From Hirschia maritima DSM 19733 (lineage in GTDB: Bacteria; Pseudomonadota; Alphaproteobacteria; Caulobacterales; Hyphomonadaceae), in the NCBI RefSeq assembly GCF_000378345.1, contig NZ_KB899544.1, positions 682,001-746,000 on the forward strand: a DNA stretch of 64,000 nucleotides. Direction: 5' to 3'. Every line of letters starts with the position of its first letter. Position 1 is the first letter of the stretch. Below are positions 25,042 through 63,176 of this stretch, one piece after another. Made by a program: the position numbers and the translations under genes. The notes beneath the pieces were generated by a model. That model was not told the DNA's origin. It saw nothing but the letters and a program-made list of their open reading frames with translations, and ran no database searches.

Positions 25042-25087
25042 GCATGTGTATGTGGAGATGAACCCACGCCTTTTCAATTTGTATTTT

Positions 25088-25552: not shown

Positions 25553-25913
25553 ATTTTTCTCCAAACTAGATGTTTCATCACTTAGAACACGCATGCCAGA
25601 ATGCGGATTTTTTGCAAGATCGACGCTGGAAATAGTCTAGGTTAATGTCTCGTTAGGCTAGGTATCAATACAGTACAGGGCAAAGAACTTGAAGAATCAG
25701 ACATTCAAATTGACAGGTTAAATGTGGTCTAAAACTTAATGTGTATCTGAACGTTTGTTAATCGTCTGAATAAATTGGAGTTTTAGGCGGTATTTTCTTT
25801 GAAAAAAGTTTGATTTATTTTTGTTTGTAAAAGGGTGTTTAACTCTCTTGCATCAATATGCCGACTGAGAGTGGGGATTCGCATAGGTGAATTCACGAGG
25901 AGTAGCGACTGAT
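25553..25913. promoter_or_regulatory. divK upstream region with two near-CtrA boxes
   Basis: This 361-base gap holds no gene that I can see. It contains TTAA-N7-TTAG (25642-25656) and TTAA-N7-CTAA (25718-25732), each a seven-of-eight match to the CtrA consensus TTAA-N7-TTAA. In Caulobacter CtrA acts in the same circuit as DivK. Whether these are bound is untested. Confidence 0.4.
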
Positions 25914-26309
25914 ATGGCTGAAGGCACATCAAAAAAAGTCCTCGTTGTTGAGGATAATGAGCTGAACATGAAATTGTTCTGTGATTTGCTCGATGCTTTT
26001 GGCTTTGAAGCTATAAAGTCAGTTGATGGTTTGCGTGCTGTAGAACTTGCTAAGGAAGTCCATCCGGATTTGATTATTATGGATATTCAATTGCCAGAAG
26101 TTTCTGGATTGGATTTGGCGCGTTGGATCAAAGATGATGATGTGGTGGGAGATATTCCAATTCTAGCGGTAACGGCTTTTGCCATGCGTCAAGACGAACA
26201 GGACGTGAAAGATGCTGGGTGTGAGGCTTATATGACAAAGCCCATCCAGATGGCACCTTTCATTAAAACAGTGGAAGAGCTTGTTGCGCCGAGGAGACAG
26301 ACCCATTGA
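25914..26309 (+). CDS. divK: DivK, single-domain response regulator
   Basis: 131 residues, one receiver domain: VVEDNELNM (acidic pocket), phospho-acceptor Asp57 in LIIMDIQLPE, TAFAM with the conserved Thr, and KPI with the conserved Lys. It resembles Caulobacter DivK closely (VVEDNELNMKLF, ISGL/VSGL, TAFAM). DivK works with PleC and DivJ to control CtrA and cell fate. I chose the ATG at 25914, after CGAGGAG, over an upstream GTG at 25887. pleD starts inside its stop codon. Confidence 0.95.
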   Translation: MAEGTSKKVLVVEDNELNMKLFCDLLDAFGFEAIKSVDGLRAVELAKEVHPDLIIMDIQLPEVSGLDLARWIKDDDVVGDIPILAVTAFAMRQDEQDVKDAGCEAYMTKPIQMAPFIKTVEELVAPRRQTH

Positions 26310-27685
26310 GCGCGCGTGTCCTCGTAGTTGATGATATTGAAGCAAACCGAAAATTACTCTGCGCCAAACTAGCTCATGAGTATTTTCAGGTAACGACTGC
26401 TGTCGATGGTATGGATGCGATCGATAAAGCAATTGCGACTGAACCAGACATTATATTGCTTGATGTTATGATGCCCCGAATGGATGGATTTGAGGCATGT
26501 CGTGAATTGAAGTTTGACCCACGTACAGAGCACATTCCTATTGTTATGGTGACTGCGCTGAACGAACGTGAAGATAGATTGAAAGGGTTGAGAGCAGGGG
26601 CAGATGATTTCCTGACCAAACCAATCAATGATTTGCAATTATTGTCACGCGTTCGTGCTCTATCAAAGTACAAATTAGTTGCGGATGAGCTTAGAAAACG
26701 CGAAGCGTCTGGGCGACGAATTGGTGTAATTGATGTGACACCTTCTGGGCGCGGAGGTAATCCTGCCCGAGTATTGGTAGTCGATGACAATGAGCGTCAG
26801 GCTGCTCGTATTTGTCGTTATTTGGAAACTGACCACAAGCCTATGACATTGGCCAATGCCAGTTCTCAACCTGGTGGATTGGGAGCGGGAGCAGCTACAG
26901 TTGATATTATGGTTTTATCGCTGGGCGGTGAAAAATACGATGGCTTGAAACTGTGCGCCTACTTGCGAAACTTAGAAGCAACACGTGATCTTCCAATTCT
27001 CGCAATTGTTGATGCAGAAGATGAAGCTTTGGCTGTTAAAGCGCTTGATCTTGGTGCTTCAGATATACTCGTGCGTCCTATTGATCCAGAAGAATTGCTT
27101 GCGCGTGTAAAAACGCAGGTGAATAAGAAGAGATATATTGATTCCCTGCGTGCCAGATTAGATCAATCGATGGAATTGGCCGTTACAGATCAGCTTACCG
27201 GACTGCACAATCGACGTTTCATGGAGAAGCGTTTGGATCAATTCGTGAAGCGCTCCAATATGGGTGGCGGACCCGTTTCTATTCTTTTATGTGACTTGGA
27301 TCACTTTAAACGTGTGAATGATGGTCATGGGCATGATGTAGGGGATGAAGTTCTTCGTGAGTTTTCTGGTCGTTTGATGAAAAATATCAGACCGACTGAC
27401 ATAGCCTGTCGTTATGGCGGTGAAGAATTTATGGTTATAATGCCAGATACAACTATACAAATGGCTCAGATTACAGCTGAACGTATTCGGGACAGCGTTG
27501 ATACTATGCCTTTTGCGATAAATGGTGGCCTTGGACAGCTGGATATAACTATGTCAGGGGGGGCATCAGTAATCTTCCCGCCAGACGATACCGTAAATCA
27601 ACTGATCAAACGTGCCGATGAAGCGCTTTACAATGCAAAAGAAAGCGGCCGAAATAAAATCATCTGTAATTTTGATGGGTTTTAG
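26306..27685 (+). CDS. pleD: PleD, response-regulator diguanylate cyclase
   Basis: 459 residues with REC1 (phospho-acceptor Asp53 in ILLDVMMP), a second adaptor REC lacking the acceptor Asp (VLSLGG in its place), and a GGDEF domain. The active site is GGEEF (about 371-375), and the inhibitory I-site RPTD lies five residues before it, so product inhibition by c-di-GMP is expected. The start codon is TTG (26306-26308), overlapping the divK stop TGA, with GAGGAG about 10 bases upstream. In Caulobacter PleD controls stalk, flagellum and holdfast development. Confidence 0.96.
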   Translation: MSARVLVVDDIEANRKLLCAKLAHEYFQVTTAVDGMDAIDKAIATEPDIILLDVMMPRMDGFEACRELKFDPRTEHIPIVMVTALNEREDRLKGLRAGADDFLTKPINDLQLLSRVRALSKYKLVADELRKREASGRRIGVIDVTPSGRGGNPARVLVVDDNERQAARICRYLETDHKPMTLANASSQPGGLGAGAATVDIMVLSLGGEKYDGLKLCAYLRNLEATRDLPILAIVDAEDEALAVKALDLGASDILVRPIDPEELLARVKTQVNKKRYIDSLRARLDQSMELAVTDQLTGLHNRRFMEKRLDQFVKRSNMGGGPVSILLCDLDHFKRVNDGHGHDVGDEVLREFSGRLMKNIRPTDIACRYGGEEFMVIMPDTTIQMAQITAERIRDSVDTMPFAINGGLGQLDITMSGGASVIFPPDDTVNQLIKRADEALYNAKESGRNKIICNFDGF

Positions 27686-47858: not shown

Positions 47859-48656
47859 TTAGTAGCGATGCCGTCTGTCGTGGCGATAATGGCGGTGGTC
47901 ATTGTCGTCATCAGCGATAATGGCACCAACAACCAATCCAATTATTGCGCCGGTCGCCACTGATGCGAGTATCGCATCTCCCCGGTCATGGTCTCTCACC
48001 CAGTGGTGACCGCGTGGTGGTCTGTTTAATCCATATCGGTCATAATTGCTGATCACTACACTTGATCCAGATCGATTGTAATGGCCGCCAATGTGGTAAC
48101 GGGAACCTGAATGATCAGGGCAATATAAATGATCATAACCGCTATGGTGATGGCCGTGGTGACGTGAACCATAATAGCGTCTATTTCTTGGGTAGCTATT
48201 GTGGCTGTAGCTCCAATAAGGGCGGTTTACACGATGCCGGTTGTAGGAATGTCTGCGATATCCGTCATTGTATCGTCTATGTATTGAGCGGTTATCGGTG
48301 CGTCGATAATTTCTATCGCGATGAGCATTGTAGTTATGGTCAGCGTGTGCCCAATGCCTACTATAACTATCATTGCGATAGCGCCCATTATCGTGTCTGG
48401 TTTCTTCGCGATGGTGTCTTCGCGCACTTTGGTCGTGATCATTGTCGCGATGATGTCTCGTGTCACGGTCGCGATGTGAATTATGAAATGCCTTGATTGG
48501 AGATTTCTCAAAGCTTTCTTTGGAGCCCATTGAGGGAGCGCCAGCTAATTCGCTTTCGGAATAAGATTGGGCAAAAGAAGTCGGTATTATGAGAAGCGAC
48601 GCAGCTATGAAGCTGGTTGCGCCGACTTTGAGAAGAAATGTCTTTTTTGAAGCCAT
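47859..48656 (-). CDS. Exported RcnB-like protein with a long His/Arg/Tyr-rich region
   Basis: 265 residues with a signal peptide cleaved near SFAQS. Residues about 50-185 are extremely rich in His, Arg, Tyr, Asn and Asp (HHRDNDHDQ, RRHHREE, HHGHHHSGYDHLYCPDH). The last third carries the RcnB signature: YGLNRPPRGHHWVRDHDRGDAILASVATGAIIG, read in two halves around residues 205-240, then a glycine-alanine hydrophobic stretch. RcnB proteins affect nickel/cobalt homeostasis in the periplasm. Metal binding by the His-rich part is inferred. Confidence 0.8.
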   Translation of the reverse strand: MASKKTFLLKVGATSFIAASLLIIPTSFAQSYSESELAGAPSMGSKESFEKSPIKAFHNSHRDRDTRHHRDNDHDQSARRHHREETRHDNGRYRNDSYSRHWAHADHNYNAHRDRNYRRTDNRSIHRRYNDGYRRHSYNRHRVNRPYWSYSHNSYPRNRRYYGSRHHGHHHSGYDHLYCPDHSGSRYHIGGHYNRSGSSVVISNYDRYGLNRPPRGHHWVRDHDRGDAILASVATGAIIGLVVGAIIADDDNDHRHYRHDRRHRY

Positions 48657-49288: not shown

Positions 49289-50242
49289 CTAGATTAGATT
49301 GATTTCCCTTAACCGCTGCAGCAAGAATTCATGCGCGGTAATGCTCTCTGGGTAACGGTCGGGATTGTCATCTGAAATACATGTTTCAAGTGTTTTGATT
49401 TCAAAGTCTGGCTTGAAGTGCGCAAAGAATGGCGTCGAATATCTCGCAAATTTTGAGCGTTCTGGTTTCGGATTCACAACACGGTGAAGAGTGGATGGCA
49501 GTATGTGGTTGGTTAGGCGTTCCAGCATGTCTCCAACATTGACTACTAAACATCCAGGAGGAGGCGTGATCGGTAGCCAGCGACCGTCACGATCTTTTAC
49601 TTCCAATCCACCTTCTTCAGCGCCTAGTAGCAGCGTGATAACATTGATGTCGCCATGTTCCGCCGCGCGAACTGAACCTTCAGGTGGAGGCGTGTCTTGA
49701 GCAGGATAATGAAGAAGGCGCAGCACTGAATTTCCATTTTCCATCGCGCTATCAAACCAGTTTTCCTCAAGATTTAAGTAACTTGCAATTGAGGACATGA
49801 TTTTGATGCCCAGCTCATCCATAGCATCAAACATTGCGTAAGTTTGGGTGTGCCAGTCTTCAATTTCGTCAACAGACACATTGGGAGGCATGATGTTGAG
49901 GAATTCGTGATTTTCTGGAAGGTCTCGGCCGATATGCCAAAATTCTTTTAAATCAATGTGTTCTGCATCTTTTGCTTTTTCTTGTCCAAAAGGAAAATAA
50001 CCGCGTTGGTTTTCTTTTGTGTGCGTATATTTTGCCTTGGCGTCTTCGTTCATGGCAAAGAAGGTTTTGGCCCTTTCCAGCGCAGTGTCTAGAACTGTTT
50101 GATCCAATCCGTGATCAGCCAGAACAGCAAACCCGTATCGTTTAAAACTGTCACCTAAAGCGGTCGAAAATGCATCTGGGGCATTATCTCGTTGTTTCAT
50201 GGAAACGGGTTCAATAGCTGAGACGATGGCGTCTAGGGACAT
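49289..50242 (-). CDS. Isopenicillin N synthase-like 2OG-Fe(II) dioxygenase
   Basis: Start at ATG 50242 after GGAGAT. 317 residues. DIOX_N domain (about 10-120, with RYGFAVLADHGLD), then the 2OG-Fe(II) core with the iron ligands HGD (AEHGDINVITLLL) and His in LPSTLHRVVNP, and the 2OG-binding R-x-S in ARYSTPFF. Substrate unknown; such proteins act in amino acid, nucleobase or small-molecule oxidation. Confidence 0.9.
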   Translation of the reverse strand: MSLDAIVSAIEPVSMKQRDNAPDAFSTALGDSFKRYGFAVLADHGLDQTVLDTALERAKTFFAMNEDAKAKYTHTKENQRGYFPFGQEKAKDAEHIDLKEFWHIGRDLPENHEFLNIMPPNVSVDEIEDWHTQTYAMFDAMDELGIKIMSSIASYLNLEENWFDSAMENGNSVLRLLHYPAQDTPPPEGSVRAAEHGDINVITLLLGAEEGGLEVKDRDGRWLPITPPPGCLVVNVGDMLERLTNHILPSTLHRVVNPKPERSKFARYSTPFFAHFKPDFEIKTLETCISDDNPDRYPESITAHEFLLQRLREINLI

Positions 50243-50360
50243 TTTAATCTCCGACTTTGGAAAACAGCGCATTCATAATGCGTTTGATCAAAAAAGGATA
50301 CCACAAAAGTGTTCAACGACGGAAAGGTGCAGATTGTCACAATCGTCAGGTCGATTGACG

Positions 50361-51719
50361 TTACCTTTTCCGCGTTGTTCGAGGAGGTTGGGCCCAATAT
50401 GGAGCGGATAGCTGAGGAGTTTCCGATTCTGGAGATACTCTTTTTGCAACTAGAATGTAGGAGATATAAAAGAAGAACAGTGCAGAGGCATGCGTGTTTT
50501 GCAACATTAACAAACTCTCGGATAATGAGAACATCACCATCTGAATGACAAAGAGAAACAAAAATGGTCCGTGCTTACCCGTTGCCAATACACCTGCCTT
50601 GAGAAGAGCAAATAAAGTCACGCATATGATCAATATCAGGCCGGGATATCCAAGGTCTAACCCAATTTCCAACCAACTATTATGCGCAGTTGGCACTTCC
50701 CATTGTAAGCGATCAACAATGTAGGAAACTGGCCCATTTTCGGTGACCCAGAACGCACCATATCCGAAACCACTAAGAGGGTTTTGGTTGATCAGTTCAA
50801 TTACAATTGCCCAAATATCTGTTCTTCCGGTGAAGGTTAGATCCTTCCCAATAAGAGCAACAACTGCTTCTGGAAAAAATGTTAGGATGGAAAAAGCTAT
50901 TCCAGTGAGGCTTATACCGGCCCAAAACGCGATGAGCCCGAGAACGGGAGTTCGAATTGCTATTTGGTAAAATAAAACCCCAATGTAGGGCAGTGTTGTT
51001 GCAATAAGTGCTGTTTTTGAAGTCGATCCCAATATTAGCAACCATGAAAGCCCCAGGCCTATCCACCATATATTTTTTCGTTTTCCCTTTTCTGTGCGTC
51101 CGTCTAGGAAGATCAGGGCAAGAAACAATAAATTTGCACGTGCCATCTCACCACCGAGGTGATTTTTTTCAATTAGGTATCCGCGCCAAGCCCCATGATG
51201 AAGTTCAGAGTGAATTCCTGCTTGAGGAACTCCAAAAATAATAAGAAGATTTAGAACACAAATTGTGGCCCACGCCCAGCCGACTATCTTTAAGGTGTCG
51301 AGAAGCGGCGCTCTAATGGCAAGATAGAACCCAAACATGAATGTAAAGCTGAGCGCAATAACACGCCTCTGCGTCATATCTGGGTCAATCGAGCCACTTA
51401 TAGAGGCTATAGTAAGCCCCCAAAGGATAAGCAGAGGCCAGAATTTTAAACAAGCCGATAAAAACTTCCTGATATTTAGAGCGATTAACCCCATCAGGGC
51501 GAGATATGTGGGAAACCATGAGGCTCTCGCCAGAGGTCCAATGTCTTGGACAATCATGGTGGGTTTCTCCGATGGAGGGCCCATCAATAAGGCAATCCAT
51601 AATCCCGAATAGGTAAGGACAATGATGAATAGAGCAATGCGCTCTAACGAAATCCAGTATTTTTTGGAGTTGGTAGGAGTGCTATGCCATTTAGAAATAT
51701 GCGTATCGTCGGTTAGCAA
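50361..51719 (-). CDS. O-antigen ligase/Wzy-type polymerase, candidate holdfast polymerase
   Basis: 452 residues with 10 or more predicted transmembrane segments and a large periplasmic loop in the C-terminal third, where FTGRTDIWAIVIELINQNPLSGFGYGAFW is the signature region of the Wzy_C (O-antigen polymerase) family, followed by HNSWLEIGLDLGYPG. It would polymerise repeat units in the periplasm. The only start in frame is TTG at 51719. Divergent from the GH5 gene, and near hfsD/hfsA/hfsB, so an HfsC/HfsI-like role is likely. The gene name is not certain. Confidence 0.85.
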   Translation of the reverse strand: MLTDDTHISKWHSTPTNSKKYWISLERIALFIIVLTYSGLWIALLMGPPSEKPTMIVQDIGPLARASWFPTYLALMGLIALNIRKFLSACLKFWPLLILWGLTIASISGSIDPDMTQRRVIALSFTFMFGFYLAIRAPLLDTLKIVGWAWATICVLNLLIIFGVPQAGIHSELHHGAWRGYLIEKNHLGGEMARANLLFLALIFLDGRTEKGKRKNIWWIGLGLSWLLILGSTSKTALIATTLPYIGVLFYQIAIRTPVLGLIAFWAGISLTGIAFSILTFFPEAVVALIGKDLTFTGRTDIWAIVIELINQNPLSGFGYGAFWVTENGPVSYIVDRLQWEVPTAHNSWLEIGLDLGYPGLILIICVTLFALLKAGVLATGKHGPFLFLFVIQMVMFSLSESLLMLQNTHASALFFFYISYILVAKRVSPESETPQLSAPYWAQPPRTTRKR

Positions 51720-51747
51720 TCCACAAGTGCTCCAGTTAAAGGTATTT

Positions 51748-51766
51748 TGAAGTTTCTATAACTTCA
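51748..51766. promoter_or_regulatory. Perfect palindrome between wzy and GH5 genes
   Basis: TGAAGTT (51748-51754), TCTAT, AACTTCA (51760-51766) is a perfect 7+5+7 inverted repeat 29 bases upstream of the polymerase start. It also sits about 145 bases ahead of the GH5 gene. A half-site TGAAGTT occurs at 55595-55601, just upstream of hfsA. Operator function is inferred. Confidence 0.4.
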
Positions 51767-51909
51767 TTGGTTTGCGAACAGTTGCAAGAGAGTAGATATA
51801 TATAAAAGTATGGAATACTGAGAAATTACAGATGCCAATTCTATGTTTTTCCTCAAGAGTGACATAAAGACATTATCAACAAGATGTTGGTGCCGAATGA
51901 GGGATTGTT

Positions 51910-52953
51910 GTGAAAAAGACTCCATCAAGAAAAAGTATTGCAGGACTGTTGCTAAGTGCAATCATGAGTTTTGGGTGTTCTGCGGAAGAGCAACACAATT
52001 CAACCTCTGAAAACGAAAGCCCAATTTATCAATTACCCCAATCCCCCATTTCAAAGTGCATTAATGTTGGGAATGCGCTGGATGCACCGAATGAAGGTGA
52101 TTGGACTTATCGAATTGAAGATTATCATTTGAAAGCAATCGCGGATGCTGGCTTTGATACTGTTCGGGTTCCAATACGTTGGTCGGCTCATGCGCTAGCC
52201 ACAGCTCCTTATACAATCGATCCGGTGTTTTTTGATCGCGTCGAGCACGTTGTTAATACCGGTTTGGATTATGGATTGCAGGTCATAGTCGACGTTCATC
52301 ACTATGATGGAATAATGCAATCTCCTGATGAACATTATGAACGTCTGGATCAAATGTGGAGACAAATTGCAAAGCGGTTCTCAGGTCGTGGCGATCGAAT
52401 TATTTTCGAAGTGCTCAATGAAGCACACACCGAACTTACAAATTCGAAGTTGGCGAAACTAAATTCCAAGGTTTTGACGACGATACGAAATAATGCAGGA
52501 TCTGAACCTTGGATTATTCTAGGCGGAGATGAGTGGGGGAATTTATCGGGCATTGAAGATGCTCGGTTTCCTGATGATCCGCGGACAATCCTCACCTTTC
52601 ATGATTACAGTCCATTTCCGTTTACCCACCAAGGCGCAACCTTTACGGTTGAAAAATATCCTTTGGGCAGGGAATGGGGAAGTGAAAAAGAAAAGAAAGA
52701 ACTCAAAGCGCTATTCGAAGATGCTCAAAAAATTGGGAAAAAGTGGAACAAACCCTTATTTATGGGGGAGTTTGGCGTAATCGATGGCGTGCCCAATTCC
52801 TGGCGCGCTGAATATATAGAACAATATCGGCGTAAAGCTGAAGAGGCGGGTATCGGTTGGTGTCTGTGGGATTTTGGAGCATCATTTGCCATTTACGATG
52901 TGAGTACTCGTGAATGGGAGCCAAAAATTTTGGATGCATTGATGTCCCAGTAG
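51910..52953 (+). CDS. GH5-family beta-glycanase, likely lipoprotein
   Basis: 347 residues. A signal with a Cys at residue 23 (SFGC) looks like a lipobox, though not a perfect one. The GH5 barrel: VRVPIRW near residue 78, VIVDVHHYDG, acid/base Glu in EVLNEAH (about 170), DYSPFPFTHQG, and nucleophile Glu in FMGEFGV (about 287). It would cleave beta-1,4-type glycans such as cellulose or related polymers. GTG start. Flanked on both sides by holdfast-type genes, so its substrate may be the strain's own exopolysaccharide. Confidence 0.9.
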   Translation: MKKTPSRKSIAGLLLSAIMSFGCSAEEQHNSTSENESPIYQLPQSPISKCINVGNALDAPNEGDWTYRIEDYHLKAIADAGFDTVRVPIRWSAHALATAPYTIDPVFFDRVEHVVNTGLDYGLQVIVDVHHYDGIMQSPDEHYERLDQMWRQIAKRFSGRGDRIIFEVLNEAHTELTNSKLAKLNSKVLTTIRNNAGSEPWIILGGDEWGNLSGIEDARFPDDPRTILTFHDYSPFPFTHQGATFTVEKYPLGREWGSEKEKKELKALFEDAQKIGKKWNKPLFMGEFGVIDGVPNSWRAEYIEQYRRKAEEAGIGWCLWDFGASFAIYDVSTREWEPKILDALMSQ

Positions 52954-52964
52954 AAATTGCAAGA

Positions 52965-54098
52965 TCAATTATCTAATGGAAAGGGGCGAAGGCAAAACGC
53001 ATAGTCTCCATCTAGTGGGGTTTGGAACCAAATGTTTCTTAGGTTCTCACTAGAATAGCCTGAATAAAATGTACCGTGAGCGTGATTGTAAGGGCCGTTT
53101 TTAATGTTGGCAGCACTTAATTCGGGGACCAACGCGTTTATTGTAACTTGTCTTACATGAGGTATTTGCAGTTTTTCCAAATTCAATTCTGTCGCAATGG
53201 ATTTGGCGGCCCGTATTAGGTCGGGGAATGTTTGTGCTTCTTTGCCGGGAAGTGAGATCAAATCAATTACACTTAAAATTGGCGCAGATATCTCCGTTTC
53301 TTTGGAGATGACAGCTAACAACCAGCCTTCAATCCCTTCCGATCCTTCAAATGTAATGAATATCGGTGGAATTTTGAAATCTGGGTTACTCAAAACCCAA
53401 TTGATGGTCTTGCTGCTTCGATTTGTGTACAAATTGTCTGAGTGACGAAGCTTTGCCCAGAAAGCATCAATTTCGTTGCTGCATTCCGTGTGATCTGCGA
53501 TCAGGTTTGTGTTGTTTGGAAGTTTAAATGCGCTAGCCGCCAAAGGGGGGACTTTACCAAATCTCTCCTTACCATTGCGAGAGTTCCTAAAATTACTCAT
53601 CATATGATATCGGCGGCGTAAGCCTGATGTAATATACAGACCTGGATTAGTAATCCATTGCAATACGATGTTTGCCGTTGGTTCGAATAATGAGATGTTG
53701 TTTTTTATTCGTGGATAAATTCGGGCCGCGATTTCATTATTGTTGAGAGTGTAAGAACCAAACCCGACATTCTGCTTAATAACTTCTCTAATGAGTTTTA
53801 TGCCGACATGCAGTTGGTTGGGATGGGCAATGTGCGAGTGTCCTGAAACAGCCTTTAAGGTTTCTCCCTTGTGTGAGAAGTCCTTCACGCAGCATCCAAT
53901 AAAGCCAACCACCTCTTCATTTTGGTTTTGCACGACAAATCCAGGGGAGTGTGCACCCTGAGCGGGATTTTCTTCAAATAACCATTTCCATCCCAGTTGC
54001 GAGCGCTCTGCGAACCAAGCAGACGCCAGCAAAGAGTTTATTGCGTTTGTGTCGTCCAGCTTCACAGGCCTAATTTTTTGGGAGGAATTCGTGATCAT
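52965..54098 (-). CDS. GNAT-family acyltransferase in the holdfast region
   Basis: 377 residues. The N-terminal half is GNAT-like (IRPVKLDDTNAINSLLA, then VVQNQNEEVVGFIGCCVKD). The rest contains TLNNNEIAARIYPRIKNN and a second half ending in a strand-rich region (ITINALVPELSAANIKNGPYN-like segments). No signal peptide. Convergent with the GH5 gene. It may N- or O-acylate sugar, as other GNATs such as HfsK do in Caulobacter holdfast work; that is inference from place only. Confidence 0.7.
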   Translation of the reverse strand: MITNSSQKIRPVKLDDTNAINSLLASAWFAERSQLGWKWLFEENPAQGAHSPGFVVQNQNEEVVGFIGCCVKDFSHKGETLKAVSGHSHIAHPNQLHVGIKLIREVIKQNVGFGSYTLNNNEIAARIYPRIKNNISLFEPTANIVLQWITNPGLYITSGLRRRYHMMSNFRNSRNGKERFGKVPPLAASAFKLPNNTNLIADHTECSNEIDAFWAKLRHSDNLYTNRSSKTINWVLSNPDFKIPPIFITFEGSEGIEGWLLAVISKETEISAPILSVIDLISLPGKEAQTFPDLIRAAKSIATELNLEKLQIPHVRQVTINALVPELSAANIKNGPYNHAHGTFYSGYSSENLRNIWFQTPLDGDYAFCLRPFPLDN

Positions 54099-54506
54099 GA
54101 AATGAGTGACGTGTTCGCGTATATAAAGCTGGCTAAAATCAAAAATGAAGTGACTTGTTATGGGGGCGAAATTTCAATTCTTCAACTAGTTTTATTTTCC
54201 AAGGTAAGATGTCACTGTTTCCGTAAACTATATTTTAAACTGACCTAACATGGTAAATACACAGCAGTGAAATTTTGAGTTATCAAGTAACAATTTGATA
54301 ATTAGGGTTTCTATTCAAATAATAACAAAAGAAAATTCTTCGACAACTAGGGATATCTAAGTATTTAACGTTGTAATTAACTATAGATCAATAGAGATTT
54401 TGTTCAATGCTTACATCGCCGGAGAAGGTGATGGTTTATGGTGGAACGGCTCTAAGTTCAGTGGATATATCCCGATGAAGAGCCAAATTGTCGAAGGAAG
54501 ACACAA
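54099..54506. other. AT-rich, gene-poor region upstream of the Sel1 gene
   Basis: About 400 bases with unusually low GC. The only open frame of note is a 23-codon one starting ATG at 54407, not in frame with the next gene; I cannot support it. TTAA-N8-TTAA at 54365-54380 misses the CtrA spacing by one. It probably holds the promoter of the Sel1 gene. Confidence 0.5.
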
Positions 54507-54779
54507 ATGGCTTATGCTGATGTATCATTGGAAGCTCCTGAAGCGGGCTTAACAAAAGACTCTGCTGGTGAAGAACTTTACCGGATTGGACTTATGTATT
54601 CTACAGGAATGGGAGTTGCAGTTGATTACGTTGCAGCACACAAATGGTTTAACCTTGCCGCTGTTAAAGGCGTTCGTGAAGCACGTGAACAGCGTCGCGA
54701 AATGGTTGACTACATGTCATCTATAGAACTACGCCAAGCACAACGCGCTGCTCGCGAGTGGATGCAAAAAGCACACTAG
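54507..54779 (+). CDS. Small Sel1-repeat protein
   Basis: 90 residues with a single Sel1-like repeat at about residues 23-60 (ELYRIGLMYSTGMGVAVDYVAAHKWF), flanked by an acidic N terminus and an Arg/Gln-rich helical C terminus. No signal peptide. GAAGGAAG precedes the ATG. Sel1 repeats mediate protein contacts. It converges on hfsD and may be a small cytoplasmic partner. Function unknown. Confidence 0.75.
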   Translation: MAYADVSLEAPEAGLTKDSAGEELYRIGLMYSTGMGVAVDYVAAHKWFNLAAVKGVREAREQRREMVDYMSSIELRQAQRAAREWMQKAH

Positions 54780-54814
54780 TGGGGCTCGTTGACTGCGTAT
54801 TGAGTAGTAGGGCG

Positions 54815-55528
54815 CTAGAAGCGATCCTCTCCTAAGTCGTAGAAGAATGAAAAGTTGATTGGCAATGCACCCAAAATGTATTGCTGAATGAATTGGTTTT
54901 CATTTGCGATACGACTGCGAGATACAAATACGACATCGAACCTTTTAAGTGGTCCAATATCGAGTTTTCTCGGATCACGAAGTGCGTTTTTCACATCGAC
55001 GACACGTGTCATGATTTGGCCGTCGCGATCGCGACGCAATATAATGACCTGTTCAGGTTTGGAGGTTTCTCTCCAGCCGCCAGCAAGAACGATTGCTTGA
55101 AGTGGGTCGATTTGACCTGGCAAAGGGAAAACGCCAGGGTTATTGACTTCACCTCCAACAAAAATTTGCTGTGAGGCAAATTCTGTGGGCGTAACAGTAA
55201 GAGAAGGATCCACCAATTCTCTTGCATAAATGCGTTCCAGAATTTGCTTTAGCTCTTGCGCAGATAAATTAGCTACAACCACAGGGTCCATTAAAGGTAG
55301 ACTTATGCGGCCATCTGGCGCTATTACCACCTCGCGATCAAGTTCTGGCGCGTGCCGGAAGGTGACGTTCAACCTATCTCCAGGGTAAAATCTGTAAGCG
55401 GTATCGTCTTGAGACCATTGGGAAAATTTGGTCGCAGGGAAGTTGGGCGCGCTTGCATCAGGCTGTGGTGTCGAACATCCCGAAGTGAGGACGAAGCTTG
55501 ATGCGAAGATGGGTAGGAGCTTTTTCAT
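54815..55528 (-). CDS. hfsD: HfsD-like outer-membrane polysaccharide export lipoprotein (Wza type)
   Basis: 237 residues with a lipoprotein signal (lipobox LTSGC, Cys at residue 18), a Poly_export domain (about 45-125, with YPGDRLNVTFRHAPELDREV) and one SLBB-like segment (IFVGGEVNNPGVFPLPG). The C terminus ends in a hydrophobic stretch, ILGALPINFSFFYDL. Much shorter than E. coli Wza, but typical of HfsD. It would form the outer-membrane pore for the holdfast. Divergent from hfsA. There is a second ATG three bases upstream. Confidence 0.9.
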   Translation of the reverse strand: MKKLLPIFASSFVLTSGCSTPQPDASAPNFPATKFSQWSQDDTAYRFYPGDRLNVTFRHAPELDREVVIAPDGRISLPLMDPVVVANLSAQELKQILERIYARELVDPSLTVTPTEFASQQIFVGGEVNNPGVFPLPGQIDPLQAIVLAGGWRETSKPEQVIILRRDRDGQIMTRVVDVKNALRDPRKLDIGPLKRFDVVFVSRSRIANENQFIQQYILGALPINFSFFYDLGEDRF

Positions 55529-55625
55529 CATGATGCTTTCTTATTGCATCTCTTTTGGATAATAAAATATTAAGGCAAATCAAGCCACAAACAGTGAAGT
55601 TTTATAAATACAGCAGAATTAGAAT

Positions 55626-57116
55626 ATGACGCAAGCCAATCAAACTGCACAAATGATAGATCGCCGCGAACAGCGTGGTGTAAATTTGCGCGTGCGCCCA
55701 CGTTTTGGACTTGGCGATGTATTGCTACAATTGTGGCGATCATTGTGGATTATGCTGCTTGTATTCATTCCACTATTTGTCCTTGGGATCCTGTTTGCAA
55801 CGACATTACCGAAGAACTACATCGCTGCTGGAACCATGCAGGTTACATTCGATAAGCAATACATTTACGATCCATTAGTTGGGGATGCTGGTCGCGGTGT
55901 CTCTATTGATGCTGAAGCCGTTGTGAGCGCTGAGGCAGAGAAAGCAAATTCTCCTATTTTAGTTCGCCGTGTATTGGGATCATTGGGAATTGAAAATGTT
56001 TATCCCAAAATTGCTGCGGAAATTTCTGAGACGGATAATGTTGAACGAATTAGAAAGCTAGAGACAGCAGCTTTTGAAGCAATGAATTCAAATTACTGGG
56101 CGTCTCACGGAACAAAGTCACCATTGCTTACTTTTGCATTTAAGCACGAAGATCCTAAAATTGCTGCAAATGTTGTGAACCACTTTCTTGAACAGTTTAT
56201 GGATTACCGTGAAATTGGAACGGATAAAGTTGATATTGAAGCTGTTGCGGGTCAGAGACGTCGAGTAGGAAGTTCTTTGGAAGATGCTGAAACGGCTTTA
56301 CGTGATTTTCTCGTGAAAAATAACATTGGTGAGTTTGAAGCAGAAAGAATTACTTTAGCTGAGACGTTAGCTAATTTGCGGACCGAATTCCTCAGTGCTG
56401 AAGCTCAAGCTAAAGAAAGTGAAGGGCGGTTAAATGCTCTGAGAGCTATGCTGCCTGAAACACCGGAAACGATTGCGTTGCATGTAGAAACCGATGCTGC
56501 TCAACGCCTTCTTGATCTCCAGTTAGAACGCGAACAATTGCTTTTAAGGTATTTGCCAGACAGCCGCGCTGTGCTGGAGCTGGATGCCCGTATAGCAAGT
56601 ATGAAAGCTCTGCTTGAAAGTGAAGATAGCGGTGTGCGTAGAACAGGACCAAACCCTGCCTATCAGGAGTTAGTTTCAACCATTACTTCCGTTCGCACTG
56701 ACATGGATGCCGCAAATTCAAGAGCAGCTGAATTAGAACGTCAAATTTCACAAGTTTCAGCGCGCCAGCGTGAATTCGTCAAAATTCAACCTCGCTACAA
56801 AGAATTGAGCAGAGATAGAGATGTGTTGGAAACAGCGATGGTTGAGCTTGCGACACGAGAAGAAACCAAGCGAGCCGAAATAGAAATTTCCAAAGGCTCA
56901 AGTGGAAGTGTCGTCATTCTTGATAGAGCGCTACCACCTACAAAAGGATCTAGCATGAAGCTTCCTGTTGCGCTGGCAACTTTGCTATTTTCTGGATTTA
57001 CAGCGTTGATCGCTGGATTATTGGTTGCATTTAGTCGTAAAGGGCTATCAACACGTCGTTCAACTGAGAAGACAATTGGTTTGCCAGTTGTTGGGGTGAC
57101 GTCAAAACAAAAATAA
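55626..57116 (+). CDS. hfsA: HfsA-like polysaccharide co-polymerase (Wzc N-terminal type)
   Basis: 496 residues. Two transmembrane segments (about residues 37-62, LWIMLLVFIPLFVLGIL, and about 455-480, LPVALATLLFSGFTALIAG), with a long periplasmic coiled-coil region between (about 200-420, rich in Glu, Ala, Leu and Arg). Wzz-type GTMQVTF region near residue 78. No C-terminal kinase domain, which is supplied by the next gene. Divergent from hfsD. Confidence 0.92.
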   Translation: MTQANQTAQMIDRREQRGVNLRVRPRFGLGDVLLQLWRSLWIMLLVFIPLFVLGILFATTLPKNYIAAGTMQVTFDKQYIYDPLVGDAGRGVSIDAEAVVSAEAEKANSPILVRRVLGSLGIENVYPKIAAEISETDNVERIRKLETAAFEAMNSNYWASHGTKSPLLTFAFKHEDPKIAANVVNHFLEQFMDYREIGTDKVDIEAVAGQRRRVGSSLEDAETALRDFLVKNNIGEFEAERITLAETLANLRTEFLSAEAQAKESEGRLNALRAMLPETPETIALHVETDAAQRLLDLQLEREQLLLRYLPDSRAVLELDARIASMKALLESEDSGVRRTGPNPAYQELVSTITSVRTDMDAANSRAAELERQISQVSARQREFVKIQPRYKELSRDRDVLETAMVELATREETKRAEIEISKGSSGSVVILDRALPPTKGSSMKLPVALATLLFSGFTALIAGLLVAFSRKGLSTRRSTEKTIGLPVVGVTSKQK

Positions 57117-57235
57117 TTGCCCAGTTAAAAAAATGCGGGTGAATAGGAATGAAGCGGCCTTTCCATATATTTAACATAGTCTCTATAGATTGAGCGTTAG
57201 ATTGGCTGCCAGAGTGGGTGTAGTATTTTAATACC

Positions 57236-57946
57236 ATGAAAGATTTACGCAAAGATCTAACGGAAACATGGCGCGTTGCCACGCGTGCACCTGTGGACAA
57301 TGGTGGCCGTATGATCATGTTCATGTCAGCTTTAGAAGGTGAAGGCACATCAAGTGTGGCCGCATCGTTTGCGATGTTGGCAGCACAACGGGCACGTAAA
57401 GGTGTTTGGCTTGTAGATTTGAATCTGATGGGAGGTCGCCTCTTTAAAGCATTTGATCGCGGTGGAGAATTTGTCGACACTTATGGTCAAGTTGGACCGG
57501 CTCATAATGCTGAAACTGCAGGCTCTTCTTTTTTCTCAATCTCGCCACCACCACCTCCACCACCTGCTGGTCAAAAGAAAGATGCGGGCTTATTCGTTAT
57601 GCATCGTGTTGGTGATACAAAATTGCTTGTTTCTCGTTTTCGGAAAGAGCGCTTAGAGGCTAGTGCGCAAGTTCGCATCAAAACGGGTGAAGATTATTGG
57701 AAAGCAGTTCGTGAAATTGCGGACTGGATAATTGTTGATGCGCCGGCTTTAGAAGCTTCCCCAGCAGGATTGGCGATATGCGCACAAATGGATGCAACTG
57801 CACTTGTTGTTCGTGCAGATAAAACGCCTGCAACCGAGGTTTCTAGGCTCGGTCAAGAAATTGAGGGCCATGGTGGTACATGCATGGGGGTCGTTCTCAA
57901 TGCGACTAAATTTGATGCTCGTATTGCGGATGAAATTTCGGGCTAA
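57236..57946 (+). CDS. hfsB: HfsB-like BY-kinase relative with degenerate Walker A
   Basis: 236 residues, all cytoplasmic. The fold resembles BY-kinases/CpsD: MFMSALEGEGTSSVAASF takes the Walker A place (residues 28-44), but the G-x-G-K-S/T lysine is Thr38 (GEGTSS). Walker A'-like VWLVDLNLMGG and Walker B-like WIIVDAPAL remain. There is no Tyr-rich C-terminal tail. A run of seven prolines interrupts the middle. It would partner HfsA, perhaps without kinase activity. No strong ribosome binding site is visible. Spacing to hfsA is about 120 bases. Confidence 0.85.
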   Translation: MKDLRKDLTETWRVATRAPVDNGGRMIMFMSALEGEGTSSVAASFAMLAAQRARKGVWLVDLNLMGGRLFKAFDRGGEFVDTYGQVGPAHNAETAGSSFFSISPPPPPPPAGQKKDAGLFVMHRVGDTKLLVSRFRKERLEASAQVRIKTGEDYWKAVREIADWIIVDAPALEASPAGLAICAQMDATALVVRADKTPATEVSRLGQEIEGHGGTCMGVVLNATKFDARIADEISG

Positions 57947-57998
57947 TCTTATAGCTGTTTTACTAAATTGAAGCGTTAAAGAGAGGCAGGAGGTTTCA

Positions 57999-58688
57999 AT
58001 GGATCTAGATATTGATGTCCTGCTAAAAAATGATACGTGGCTCGCCAATATTCCTACCAAAGTGCGCGCTGAGTTTGTGTCAAATATTCGTGTTAAAAAT
58101 GTTGCTCCGGAAACCATTATTTTCTCGGAAGGTGATGAGCCAACCGCTTTTCTGGGGTTGCTCTCGGGCGAAGTAGGAATACGAAAATACACTTTTGATG
58201 GCGATGAATCCTTACTTACAAAACTAACTCCAGTGCATTGGTTTGGGGAAATGTCATTTCTGGATGGTCAACCTCGAACTCATACCGCCATAGCACTTTC
58301 TGAAGTGACATTAGCGATGGTAAACAGAACTGACGTTCAGCGAATGTTGAAAGACCATTCATCGCTTTTTCAGGCATTTGTGATGCAGTTATGCCATCAC
58401 ACACGTCTTTTGTATTCAGCCGTCGACGATTTCATGTTGATGTCGCCAGAAAGGCTGCTTGCCAAGCGAATGTTGGAACTTCTTCAACAATCAAAACACG
58501 ATCAAAGTGTAGAGTGTAGTCAAGATGAATTAGCGCGACTGGTTGGCGTATCAAGGCAAAGTATAAACCGCACGCTATCGCGATGGGAAAGTCGTGGATT
58601 GATTGAGCGTGGTTATGGAAAGATCAACGTGTTGTCCAAACAAGCGATAGAACGCGTGCTGGCCGGGCAATTCGGCAAACGATCTTAA
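57999..58688 (+). CDS. Crp/Fnr-family transcriptional regulator
   Basis: 229 residues. Cyclic-nucleotide-binding-type jelly roll (about 25-130, with IFSEGDEPTAFLGLLSGEVGI and HWFGEMSFLDGQPRTHTA) and a C-terminal HTH_Crp (SQDELARLVGVSRQSINRTLSRW). No Fnr-type N-terminal cysteine cluster, so a redox role of that kind is unlikely. GGCAGGAGG precedes the ATG. Located between hfsB and the glycosyltransferase operon, it is a natural candidate regulator of the locus. Confidence 0.92.
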   Translation: MDLDIDVLLKNDTWLANIPTKVRAEFVSNIRVKNVAPETIIFSEGDEPTAFLGLLSGEVGIRKYTFDGDESLLTKLTPVHWFGEMSFLDGQPRTHTAIALSEVTLAMVNRTDVQRMLKDHSSLFQAFVMQLCHHTRLLYSAVDDFMLMSPERLLAKRMLELLQQSKHDQSVECSQDELARLVGVSRQSINRTLSRWESRGLIERGYGKINVLSKQAIERVLAGQFGKRS

Positions 58689-58705
58689 TTTGTCAAAGTG
58701 GTTAT

Positions 58706-59686
58706 CTAAGAAGGTGCGTGCTGGGTCGTTTTCTTCTTCTTGGATAAATCGCCGTAGAATTTAAATTCAAAAGGGGGAAACCATAATGGCTTACCCAAAC
58801 CGCGGATAGCTTTGTCTAGCATGAAAGCACGTTTAGGATAGCGCACAGCAAACATCACTAGTGCTATTACGCCGTAAACAATGAATTGGCCTGTTCCTAT
58901 AATCATCCACATTATCAGGCGAGGGAGGTCGACACCCTTTGAATTGCGCCAACAATTTGTTGATGGCCCCTGACCGTAGGCAAATGCACGTTTTAGAGTG
59001 TAGCCCAAATGAGCTCGGCTTGCTGGAACGTGTTCGTCAACAACAGCGTTGTGGGCCCAACCAAAAGTTTCTCCACCTTTTTCAACACGTGCAAAGAGAT
59101 AATCGTCTTCGCCGCCTGTCTCGTTTGCGATTTTTGCGAAGAAAGGTGCGTCCTTATCAAGGCATGGAGCAATGCGGTCGAGGTCTAAAAGTGCATTTCC
59201 GCAACCAAATGCTGTGTCTATAATTTGAGTTTGGTCTGGACCTTCGCGTGAGAAGAAGTCTTCTAAATATTCTTTATGAGCTTCTGGAGCTTCGGCCGGT
59301 AGAACAGTTTCCACAGGGCCAAATACAACTGCTGCATCAAGTGTCGTGTGAGCAGATAGAAGGGCATCTAGCCATCCATTTTGGGCAGTTTCATCGTCAT
59401 CAATAAAAGCGATAATACGCGAGTTCGCGCTCGCCAATCCAGCATTTCGAGCGTTCGAGACACCGGGGGTGGGCTCGCTTACATAAATAATTGGCACACG
59501 GCTATTTGGGGCAAGTTGTTTTACAATGCCTTCAGCACCTGCTTCAGGTGAGTTGTCAGCTATTACAATTTCCGCCGTTTCTAATGATGCGTCTGACATC
59601 GCCAAAATGCTTTCAACCGCATTCTTCAATCCGTCGTTTCGGCGGAATGTTGGGATGACAATGCTGACACTGACTGATTGGCTCAT
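58706..59686 (-). CDS. GT2-family glycosyltransferase with C-terminal membrane segment
   Basis: 326 residues. GT-A core starts VSIVIPTFRRNDGLKNAVESI; metal-binding DDD in IIAFIDDDETAQNGW; acceptor-side acid in NETGGEDDYLF. A membrane segment lies at about 265-290 (LIMWMIIGTGQFIVYGVIAL). It starts in the stop codon of hfsH (ATGA overlap), so it is translationally coupled. A role like HfsG or HfsL in repeat-unit synthesis is likely; which cannot be told. Confidence 0.9.
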   Translation of the reverse strand: MSQSVSVSIVIPTFRRNDGLKNAVESILAMSDASLETAEIVIADNSPEAGAEGIVKQLAPNSRVPIIYVSEPTPGVSNARNAGLASANSRIIAFIDDDETAQNGWLDALLSAHTTLDAAVVFGPVETVLPAEAPEAHKEYLEDFFSREGPDQTQIIDTAFGCGNALLDLDRIAPCLDKDAPFFAKIANETGGEDDYLFARVEKGGETFGWAHNAVVDEHVPASRAHLGYTLKRAFAYGQGPSTNCWRNSKGVDLPRLIMWMIIGTGQFIVYGVIALVMFAVRYPKRAFMLDKAIRGLGKPLWFPPFEFKFYGDLSKKKKTTQHAPS

Positions 59687-60450
59687 GCGATAACCCCGAA
59701 CTCTTTCGCTGCTTGCGTAGGCGTGGATAGAGTTGCGCCAAGGCTAACTGCTTGCTGCGCTAAATCAGTGAGTAGTTTCGAGGTTGTACCAAATCCTGTA
59801 GGCTCATCAGACACATCGTGAGTAAAGATGATCACCCATCCACCTGTTTTTCCAGCGGCCTCTATTGCATTTTTAGCGCGATTTTCGGTCATGGGGTTGC
59901 CGTTTAATTCATAGCACCGCAATTGAGCCAAATCGACTTTCCCAAGGTTTGTGCCCGGAAGGATACCGCGGCATAGATCGAATTGTTCAAAGACTTCCTT
60001 CTTTGTGTCGTACAGTGTTTCACCATACGGATAGGCCAAGCTAGTGGGACGATTCTTCAGCCCCGCTTCCGCTAAATGGCGCAAATTGGTTTTAATGTCC
60101 TCTAATACGGTGAGACGATCAGTGAGAGCGCAATCCATGTGGCTGTGGGTGTGCGCACCTATTTCATGGCCACGGTTTTCAAGGTCCAGCATGGTGGCGA
60201 TATCGTACATTTTGCCATAGGGCCCTGTTTCGCCGATCATTTTTGTACAGGCATAAAATGCTGCTTTTCCATCGTGCTTTTCAACAATGTCCGCACCGTT
60301 TACTGCTGAAAGGGGGAAGTCATCAAAAGTGAAAGACACATGAAATTTGTCACCAGAAATAATGGCTGGGGCAGCGTGTCTCCATTGCGTCATTCGGCGT
60401 TTTAATTTGGCCGGCAGTGTACGAGAAGGGTTGTGTTCCCAATCAATCAT
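59683..60450 (-). CDS. hfsH: HfsH-like polysaccharide deacetylase (NodB domain)
   Basis: 255 residues from ATG 60450 after GGAGG. All NodB motifs are present: TFDD (Asp43, Asp44), zinc-binding HTHSH (His100, His104), AYPYGE, and FTHDV near the C terminus. No signal peptide, so it would work in the cytoplasm, as HfsH is thought to do on GlcNAc-containing lipid-linked units. It overlaps the upstream GT2 gene by 8 bases and the downstream one by 4. Confidence 0.93.
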   Translation of the reverse strand: MIDWEHNPSRTLPAKLKRRMTQWRHAAPAIISGDKFHVSFTFDDFPLSAVNGADIVEKHDGKAAFYACTKMIGETGPYGKMYDIATMLDLENRGHEIGAHTHSHMDCALTDRLTVLEDIKTNLRHLAEAGLKNRPTSLAYPYGETLYDTKKEVFEQFDLCRGILPGTNLGKVDLAQLRCYELNGNPMTENRAKNAIEAAGKTGGWVIIFTHDVSDEPTGFGTTSKLLTDLAQQAVSLGATLSTPTQAAKEFGVIA

Positions 60451-61432
60451 GAAGTGCCTCCGCGTATACAAGTGCCCGCCATAGTTTTAGGGCGCGCCCC
60501 CTAAAACTAGTAGGCAGGAAAGTAGAAGAAATGATGAATTTACTTATGCCTTTAAAAGCAGGTTTTAAGGGCAGAGGTGATAGTGCAGTGGCTGCTTTGA
60601 ATAGGCTTGTTGATTGGAGCTCTTCCGGGTGTTTCCCGACGGCTTTTGTGAAGTTTGCGCCAGACCCACCATATTTGCGCATTAGGTCTTCGTCTGTATC
60701 CAATCCGAGGTGTGTCGCAGTATTGTCTAGGTGAATGATCGGGTAGGCCTTAGCAATACGCAACCCCCAGTCCACATCCTCCCAGCCCCAGCCTTGAAAA
60801 CTTTCATCAAAGGGAATTTCTTCAAACAAATCCTTGTGGGCCATGACGTTGCTTGTGAATACATAACGTCCTGGTTCCATGCTTCTTACATTTGCAGGAA
60901 CACATTCGGATTGTTCGGCTTGCCATCGATGTAGCGAAAACTCTTTTTCTAATGAAGCTTGCTTCAAAGAGAAACCGCCAACGACCAATTTGGGCGCGCT
61001 ATGGCGTTCGATTTCAGCTAGGTAATTTGAAAGAAATTCGGGATCATCTGGAAGCATATCAGCATCGAGCATCAATACCCACTCATTGCGCGCGTGATGC
61101 AAAAGTCGATTACGGGCACCAGATCTTCCTAGGTTTTTATGTGAACAAACTATTCGAATTGGAAAGTGTTGTTGTGCGGCTAACTCTCTCGCGGCTTTGA
61201 TCTTTTCAGGGACTTTGCCACCGTCATCAAACAAGATGAATTCAGTTCGTTCGATGTTCTCACATGATGCCAATGAACTGATGAGAGGGGTTGGATCATC
61301 CATATAAGTTGGAACGAGCACCGAAAGCGTTTGTTGGGCCGAGGTTTCCCATTGTGAATTGTCAAAAGTTGTTTCGTTGGAATTTGAGGCGCTTCCCTTT
61401 AAGGATACGTCTGAAACATTCTCTTCTGACAT
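60443..61432 (-). CDS. GT2-family glycosyltransferase, galactosyltransferase-type C terminus
   Basis: 329 residues. GT2 core TLSVLVPTYMDDP and metal-binding DAD in WVLMLDADMLPDD; galactosyltransferase-type WGWEDVDWGLRI (about residue 220) is the catalytic-base region. No membrane segment. It lies 12 bases after the hfsE-like gene and overlaps hfsH. Likely adds the second or later sugar of the holdfast repeat. Confidence 0.9.
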   Translation of the reverse strand: MSEENVSDVSLKGSASNSNETTFDNSQWETSAQQTLSVLVPTYMDDPTPLISSLASCENIERTEFILFDDGGKVPEKIKAARELAAQQHFPIRIVCSHKNLGRSGARNRLLHHARNEWVLMLDADMLPDDPEFLSNYLAEIERHSAPKLVVGGFSLKQASLEKEFSLHRWQAEQSECVPANVRSMEPGRYVFTSNVMAHKDLFEEIPFDESFQGWGWEDVDWGLRIAKAYPIIHLDNTATHLGLDTDEDLMRKYGGSGANFTKAVGKHPEELQSTSLFKAATALSPLPLKPAFKGISKFIISSTFLPTSFRGRALKLWRALVYAEALHD

Positions 61433-61444
61433 TTGATAGCTCGC

Positions 61445-62974
61445 TCAGCGTGGTGTTTTTGAATCGCCCAATAAACAAGGGGCGGTCATCAATATAACGT
61501 AAAGATCAAACCAAAAAGAGGCTTTTTCCATATACTCCATGTCCAACCGCACGCGCTCTTTTACAAGGTCAGCGGTGTGAACAGGACCACGAGATCCGTT
61601 TATTTGTGCCCATCCAGTTAGACCCGGCTTCATGCGATGACGGTGAGCATATTCTGCAACGATGTTGTGAACTTCTACTTCTTCAGTCGTCATACCAACA
61701 GCGTGTGGTCTTGGGCCGACTAGTGACATGTCGCCGAGCAGAATGTTGATAAGCTGTGGCAATTCATCAAGGCTAGTTCTACGCAATAATGCCCCGATTT
61801 TGGTGACACGTTTGTCGTCTGCTACTGTTTGAACTACACGTTTTCCGTCTTCGGCATCTCTGTCTGGTAGCATGGTTCTAAACTTCCAAACGCGAATGAT
61901 TTGGTTGTTGAAGCCATGTCTTTTCTGTCTAAAGAAGAGAGGGCCAGGACTGTCTAATTTGATCATCAGTGCAATGACCAGCATGAATGGGAAAAACAGA
62001 GTCAACATCGCGCCAGCAACAACAATATCTAAGGCACGTTTTATTGCAGCTCTGCGAATATCTTTCGGCGCGCCCGATACATATGCGGCCGGTGCGTCAA
62101 CAATGTTTGCAATAGAAGTGTTTTCAGGACTGAAGCCTTCGAGGTCCAGCATTAAGATCACTTCTTGTGGAAGCATGCGTAGACGATCAATAAGAGTGCG
62201 AACTCGCTTTTGTGCGGTGGACGTCACTGTTAGGACTATTCGGTCAACTTCGGGAAGTTTTTCCCAAGCTAAAAGGTCGTCAACTTTTCCTAGAACTGGA
62301 ACGCCAGAGATAGCACTTGGTGTTCGGTCTAATCGATCTTCGAACACACCTAAAATGTTCATGTCGCGCTTGCTACGGTTTCGTTCGATAAGGTCGTAGG
62401 CTGCAGGCGTAGCACCAATAATCACAACATTGTCCGCCAATGCTCCAGATCGCGTAAGTGAGCGAACCAAAGCTGCGTAATGAAGGTGAAGCGCAATATA
62501 GCCAATGAAGATGATGGCGCTGATCTGTAGTAAATGTTGAACGCCAGCGCCCAATGTTAGAATAAGGCTAGAAACGTTGATGAAAACTAATCCGCAAAAT
62601 ACACCCAGCGCGACCCGCCCAAGATGTGTAATTGGAGATTCTTCAAATGAAAAACGGTACGCACCACTCGTCTTCATACCTAAATAGGCTGCAATAGGGG
62701 CTATCACATAGGGAAGTGAAGTTCTGAAACTCTCGCCCAGAAGGTCAAAATTCAACAAATAACATGCAAGGGCGACGACACCGAATCCAGCAAAAAAATC
62801 AAACACCCTGATGGAAAATCTCAATCCGGCGCGATCTATTGGGAAACGTTTATTCGGTTTTGGAAACTCTGAGTTATCTGTGGTGGGCTTGGAGCTTTGG
62901 AACTGGCGCAAGTTCGCTAGACGAAAAGTCTCGCGGTTAGCTTCTTTGCCTTGTTCCGTTGTATCGAGGCTCAT
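61445..62974 (-). CDS. hfsE: HfsE-like polyprenyl-phosphate sugar-1-phosphate transferase
   Basis: 509 residues from the ATG at 62974; a TTG 15 bases earlier is possible. Four N-terminal membrane segments, a CoA-binding-like Rossmann region (NVVIIGATPAAYDLIERN), another membrane segment and a bacterial sugar transferase domain (KRALDIVVAG, FRQKRHGF, WKFRTML, SLDELPQLINILLGDMSLVGPRP). It starts the repeat by putting sugar-1-phosphate on undecaprenyl phosphate. It is the first gene of the minus-strand cluster. Confidence 0.94.
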   Translation of the reverse strand: MSLDTTEQGKEANRETFRLANLRQFQSSKPTTDNSEFPKPNKRFPIDRAGLRFSIRVFDFFAGFGVVALACYLLNFDLLGESFRTSLPYVIAPIAAYLGMKTSGAYRFSFEESPITHLGRVALGVFCGLVFINVSSLILTLGAGVQHLLQISAIIFIGYIALHLHYAALVRSLTRSGALADNVVIIGATPAAYDLIERNRSKRDMNILGVFEDRLDRTPSAISGVPVLGKVDDLLAWEKLPEVDRIVLTVTSTAQKRVRTLIDRLRMLPQEVILMLDLEGFSPENTSIANIVDAPAAYVSGAPKDIRRAAIKRALDIVVAGAMLTLFFPFMLVIALMIKLDSPGPLFFRQKRHGFNNQIIRVWKFRTMLPDRDAEDGKRVVQTVADDKRVTKIGALLRRTSLDELPQLINILLGDMSLVGPRPHAVGMTTEEVEVHNIVAEYAHRHRMKPGLTGWAQINGSRGPVHTADLVKERVRLDMEYMEKASFWFDLYVILMTAPCLLGDSKTPR

Positions 62975-63176
62975 GCCGGCGGATTCCAATAATCGATTAT
63001 CTAAGTTAGGTATTCTATGTTTTCATTTACATTAGCAAAGCCAACCTAAGATGAACACTTCAATCCACACCGAGATATGTTTTAACTTTAAGTCTTATAC
63101 AATAACTTGCTTAATTTTTATTTGTCCAATTCTCAAATAATGCAAGTAATGGTGACGGGTCACTTTAATACAATGT

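Follow-up and report, generated by a model that had tools for sequence, protein, structure and literature searches.

The holdfast locus

The window, by which we mean the whole stretch of 64,000 nucleotides analysed here, comes from the 3.34 Mb genome of Hirschia maritima. From synteny with Hirschia baltica we infer that its block 50361-62989 is the holdfast (hfs) biosynthesis locus of Hirschia. The genes, with the conserved flank, are:

49289-50272, minus strand: 2OG-Fe(II) oxygenase, conserved flank outside the hfs locus (PF14226 and PF03171)
50361-51719, minus strand: Wzy-type polymerase (PF04932)
51910-52953, plus strand: GH5 endoglycanase, TmCel5A-like, envelope-anchored (PF00150, E 5e-47)
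52965-54098, minus strand: uncharacterised tandem-GNAT acyltransferase (by predicted structure; no Pfam or NCBIfam match)
54507-54779, plus strand: one-repeat Sel1 protein of 90 amino acids (PF08238, one repeat)
54815-55531, minus strand: Wza-type outer-membrane export protein, HfsD (PF02563 and SLBB)
55626-57116, plus strand: Wzc/chain-length protein, HfsA (TIGR03007, E 1e-29)
57236-57946, plus strand: HfsB, tyrosine-autokinase-like ATPase (TIGR03018/TIGR01007)
57999-58688, plus strand: Crp/Fnr regulator (PF00027 and PF13545, HTH_Crp_2)
58706-59686, minus strand: second GT2 glycosyltransferase (PF00535)
59683-60471, minus strand: HfsH polysaccharide deacetylase (PF01522; NF050820, E 6e-47)
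60443-61432, minus strand: HfsG glycosyltransferase (NF050819, E 2e-92, 309 bits versus a cut-off of 500)
61445-62989, minus strand: HfsE initiating sugar-phosphate transferase (NF050817, E 8e-155; PF02397)

Every gene named in the first-pass annotation was found at its place when open reading frames and domains were checked, and the core claim of a holdfast locus is supported by the domains and by synteny with H. baltica (genome G033, locus L033), whose locus is known to make holdfast. HfsE, HfsG and HfsH adjoin the export genes HfsA, HfsB and HfsD. The NCBIfam matches of the former three are strong, yet stay under the NCBI equivalog cut-offs, and their orthology therefore rests on the synteny with H. 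baltica. The identity to the H. baltica proteins amounts to 75% for HfsE, 62% for HfsG, 74% for HfsH, 73% for HfsA/Wzc, 81% for Wza and 87% for HfsB. The functions of all six are established in Caulobacter and in the homologous locus of H. baltica. Wzc/HfsA was found in 80 of the 105 genomes of the family, and HfsB adjoins it in nearly all of the 78 loci compared for gene order. A flippase gene (Wzx) is not found within the block, and scans for promoters and terminators gave the same counts as shuffled sequence.

Some further genes may be mentioned. Elsewhere in the genome there is a second Wza-type export gene (G000:C1:597779-598006, locus L001, E 1e-22), which makes a further polysaccharide export system likely. 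At 25887-27685 (plus strand) the window encodes a response regulator and, behind it, a PleD-like protein which, judged from the translation, has receiver domains and a GGDEF-like C-terminus; c-di-GMP enzymes of the PleD-like type control holdfast in Caulobacter. A 265-residue protein rich in His, Arg and Tyr, with a signal peptide-like start and an unusual composition, is encoded at 47859-48656 (minus strand).

Position of the accessory genes

GH5, GNAT, Sel1 and Crp are full-length, ordinary genes, not chance open reading frames, and all of them, Crp excepted, have orthologs in relatives. The first-pass annotation had proposed that they form a conserved module with hfsDAB. By position, this proposal fails in the 105 family genomes. 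In nearly all relatives that keep the hfs genes, GH5 and GNAT are encoded at some unrelated place: the dispersed GH5 copies inspected adjoin hemC/hemD/tsaD or thiolase genes, those of GNAT purL/alaS or transporter genes. Conserved neighbours for exopolysaccharide synthesis were not seen around the dispersed copies of either gene, which lie among housekeeping or transporter genes. GH5 occurs in 46 family genomes, of which only the three Hirschia congeners have it within the hfs locus. GNAT has this position in just two of them, the window genome and H. baltica; the third Hirschia genome (G034) carries it on a different contig from the hfs locus.

The locus itself has been rearranged in the genus. 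Elsewhere in the family (loci L036-L081) Wzy is enclosed by hfsB and the second GT2 gene. In each of the three Hirschia congeners it has been shifted to the far flank, with an order of Wzy, GH5 and GNAT that differs from one to the other, and the Crp gene of the window genome sits at the old place of Wzy. The gap between Sel1 and wza holds an XRE-like regulator and, from translation, a short acetyltransferase-like reading frame in G034 (L034 7166-8293), and other unrelated reading frames occupy the same spot in L038 and L105. This comparison of gene orders suggests that the gap is a tolerant insertion site.

The Sel1 protein was detected in 102 of the 105 family genomes, at strong scores even in 47 of the 52 that are HfsG-negative. 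Of the 105 genomes, 49 have it close to the oxygenase and 44 close to hfs; the oxygenase, present in 101, adjoins hfs in 60. Being nearly universal with or without hfs, and paired with the neighbouring oxygenase, Sel1 is not a module gene. Judged by gene content and order, it is a conserved neighbour that belongs to an old chromosomal block rather than to the hfs set.

Co-occurrence with the holdfast and export genes

For GNAT, distribution tells more than position. It is present in 27 of the 105 family genomes, and all 27 belong to the 53 that have HfsG (Fisher p 1.7e-10; permutation within genera p <= 5e-5). In the rest of the order, where genomes were counted as HfsG-positive at E <1e-30 in a profile search, 41 genomes contain GNAT and 41 out of 41 have HfsG, against 196 out of 304 overall (p 5e-9). 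Both sets summed, 68 of 68 GNAT genomes are HfsG-positive, and GNAT is present in 0 of 160 HfsG-negative ones; the tests handle phylogeny coarsely, by strata of genus or family. Within family f2 alone, which we take to be the Caulobacteraceae, the association has a chance probability of 6e-4. Family f4 is uninformative in this respect, because nearly all of its genomes have HfsG. Crp-like matches served as an internal control and showed no HfsG bias (12 of 29 versus 14.6 expected). Of course, GNAT is not essential, since 181 of the 249 HfsG-positive genomes lack it.

GNAT also turns up in an hfs locus of another family. In genome G353 (70% GC in the region) it starts directly behind wza, on the same strand. 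The order in L175/L176 is PF13480 HfsK-type acetyltransferase, Wzx flippase, HfsG, HfsH, Wzy, HfsB, Wzc, Wza, GNAT, Sel1 and oxygenase, with a GH5 gene about 7.5 kb before HfsG. In a midpoint-rooted tree the G353 copy falls into a different subclade from the Hirschia copies. Because of this, and because the G034 copy sits elsewhere, two independent moves of GNAT into the hfs locus are likelier than a single one; an ancestral position is less probable.

These observations bear on the simplest alternative: the accessory genes might be passengers, without any connection to the adhesin, in a tolerant site between the oxygenase/Sel1 pair and wza. The different genes at this spot in G034, L038 and L105 fit the idea, as do the varying order of Wzy, GH5 and GNAT among congeners, the restriction of Crp to one strain and the ubiquity of Sel1. 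A mere passenger, however, should hardly be nested within the HfsG-positive genomes even when it is distant from hfs, nor appear beside wza again in another family, as GNAT does. We therefore consider this explanation rather unlikely.

The GH5 protein matches the endoglucanase 3amc with an E value of 4e-69. Its designation as a lipoprotein is fair: the window protein has the sequence SFGC, and a clear lipobox is seen in many relatives; in the H. baltica protein the N-terminal anchor lacks the lipobox cysteine. Within the family, GH5 occurs in 46 of 80 Wzc-positive and in 0 of 25 Wzc-negative genomes. The GH5-containing genomes are HfsG-positive in 30 of 32 cases in family f3 (p 1e-9; 15 of 15 within genus g23, p 1e-5) and in 34 of 34 in f4. 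GH5 without HfsG was encountered in 13 genomes of the own family, 2 of f3 and 6 of f5. These counts leave out five weaker matches in f2 (31-36% identity), a family in which no close GH5 ortholog was found. The Wzc split and the HfsG-negative exceptions imply that GH5 is linked no less with the export machinery than with HfsG.

The tandem-GNAT protein

The name GNAT for the product of 52965-54098 is backed by the predicted structure; the domain libraries give it no support, with 0 Pfam families at E <= 5 and 0 NCBIfam families. An AlphaFold model built from 21 orthologs displays a tandem GNAT (mean pLDDT 84.8, pTM 0.87). Its closest fold is that of N-myristoyltransferase (NMT; Foldseek E 8e-14), and the alignment with NMT 1iyl covers 309 residues at an rmsd of 4.0 Å (VIA-align Z 19.9). 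NMTs fill the 50 best rows of the fold comparison, so that the absence of FemX there has no bearing on FemX. A profile sequence search of the PDB had no NMT among its matches. The protein is probably a cytoplasmic enzyme, because the predicted structure starts with a GNAT domain. The CoA-loop motif GRGxG is preserved in most orthologs. It is degenerate in both in-locus proteins of Hirschia, which calls for caution.

An obvious candidate identity was HfsK, proteins of this type being taken here as those with PF13480. It is ruled out by Pfam, by profile comparison and by co-existence: hhalign of GNAT against the PF13480 protein of its own genome (L152) yielded a Prob of 0.2, and an HfsK-type and a window-type GNAT share one hfs locus in G353, hence are distinct genes. 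A FemAB-like protein (PF04339, E 1e-157; its match to PF13480 is weaker), a member of the HfsK superfamily, is encoded at 23866-25077 (minus strand) of the window, 26 kb away from the hfs block. H. baltica has hfsK and two paralogs outside its hfs locus, the deletion of which was without effect on holdfast binding, and BLAST revealed no further HfsK paralogs (PMC8449245). Since hfsK and its paralogs are dispensable for holdfast binding and the in-locus GNAT is not among them, GNAT becomes a natural candidate for the missing modification.

The acceptor could also be another one. GNAT might act on a different envelope substrate (lipid, peptidoglycan or protein) of a stalked, surface-attached life style, in which case the correlation with hfsG would be indirect. 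Outside Hirschia and G353 the gene indeed adjoins housekeeping or transporter genes, and NMT, its best fold match, acylates proteins. Its presence inside hfs loci in two families argues against this view, as does the lack of an NMT-like sequence relative in the PDB search, and we regard it as unlikely.

The Crp/Fnr gene

No ortholog of the Crp gene was detected in the 104 other family genomes; the nearest match has 33% identity and is located elsewhere in its genome. In the two other Hirschia genomes hfsB and the GT2 gene are adjacent, without Crp between them, and a scan of the genome contigs retrieved just three distant relatives (~25-30%), two of them in Hydrogenophaga. With the gene confined to this one genome, the module idea is refuted for Crp. 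Its composition lends no support to foreign DNA (GC 0.443, window 0.443). Compared with shuffled sequence, the window is not enriched in E. coli-type CRP sites. The sole exact palindrome of this type in the window, TGTGACGTGGATCACA, lies at 848-863, far from the hfs block. A genuine role for Crp in regulating the hfs locus of this species is very unlikely: the gene runs in the same direction as hfsAB, 53 bp behind hfsB, but congeners keeping the hfs locus have no ortholog, CRP-type sites are not enriched, and none with fewer than 2 mismatches lies within the hfs block. As far as sequence tells, Crp is a species-specific gene behind hfsAB and probably a bystander to the holdfast.

Proposed roles

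The first-pass annotation had, from position, made all four genes servants of the adhesin. For GH5 and GNAT this gains support from phyletic co-occurrence; it does not hold for Sel1, which occurs irrespective of hfs, nor for the strain-specific Crp. The reading we favour, and hold to be fairly probable, is that of a known holdfast system complemented by a holdfast-modifying tandem-GNAT protein and an envelope GH5, with Sel1 as a neighbour and Crp as a species-specific gene.

By this reading, HfsE would start the lipid-linked oligosaccharide, which HfsG and the second GT2 would lengthen; HfsH would deacetylate it before Wzy polymerises the glycan, and HfsA, HfsB and HfsD would export the holdfast polymer. 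GNAT, a facultative component, would most likely act in the cytoplasm and acylate an amine or hydroxyl on a sugar of the lipid-linked holdfast unit, the amine freed by HfsH being one possibility. GH5 may be an endo-beta-glycanase that is tethered in the envelope and serves to trim the polymer after its export or to turn it over. Normally encoded elsewhere, both genes would have been drawn into the hfs locus in Hirschia.

Among biological glues, holdfast is a very strong one. A single in-locus gene with neither a Pfam match nor detectable profile similarity to the HfsK type is a candidate for the modification of its sugars. The locus as such is of a known kind. What is new is that an unnamed family of acyltransferases is assigned to holdfast-positive Caulobacterales, and that GNAT and GH5, as likely functional additions, are set apart from the likely bystanders Sel1 and Crp. 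We would give about an even chance to the more far-reaching view that GNAT represents a hitherto unrecognised family of acyltransferases acting on holdfast: NMT-like in fold, without sequence relationship to HfsK, encoded by about one in four of the sampled HfsG-positive Caulobacterales and responsible in Hirschia for the glycan acylation for which hfsK proved dispensable. Searches of the open-access literature on holdfast with endoglucanase or GNAT turned up no paper on the GNAT family; an earlier notice is possible.

Comparison with known systems

The closest relative is the hfs locus of H. baltica. It shares the core gene order at 62-87% identity, with Wzy (66%) placed differently, and likewise has GNAT, GH5, Sel1 and the oxygenase; unlike the window, it has no Crp between hfsB and GT2, and Wzy, GH5 and GNAT are reordered. 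On G033:C1, GNAT occupies about 2123344-2124462 and GH5 about 2126001-2126954. There, mutants in hfsA and hfsH lose biofilm, the former being holdfast-null, the latter biofilm-deficient (PMC8449245). The hfs locus of Caulobacter crescentus agrees in the functions of HfsA, B, D, E, G and H. It differs with respect to the GNAT family, which is found in just three genomes of g19, presumably Caulobacter.

With the Cel5A endoglucanases (3amc; FnCel5A, 3nco) the window GH5 shares PF00150, and the catalytic domain aligns across nearly the full length; in contrast to them it is membrane-anchored and co-occurs with polysaccharide export genes. The predicted GNAT model and the solved N-myristoyltransferases have a fold in common across ~300 residues, but the identity is just 10-13%, and a shared fold does not mean a shared function. 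HfsK (CC3689) of the GNAT family resembles the window protein in its two tandem GNAT domains, which in the window protein are known from the predicted structure, and in being linked to holdfast, as is proposed for GNAT (PMC5362036); what sets GNAT apart is that it has neither a Pfam match nor profile similarity to the PF13480 protein of its own genome.
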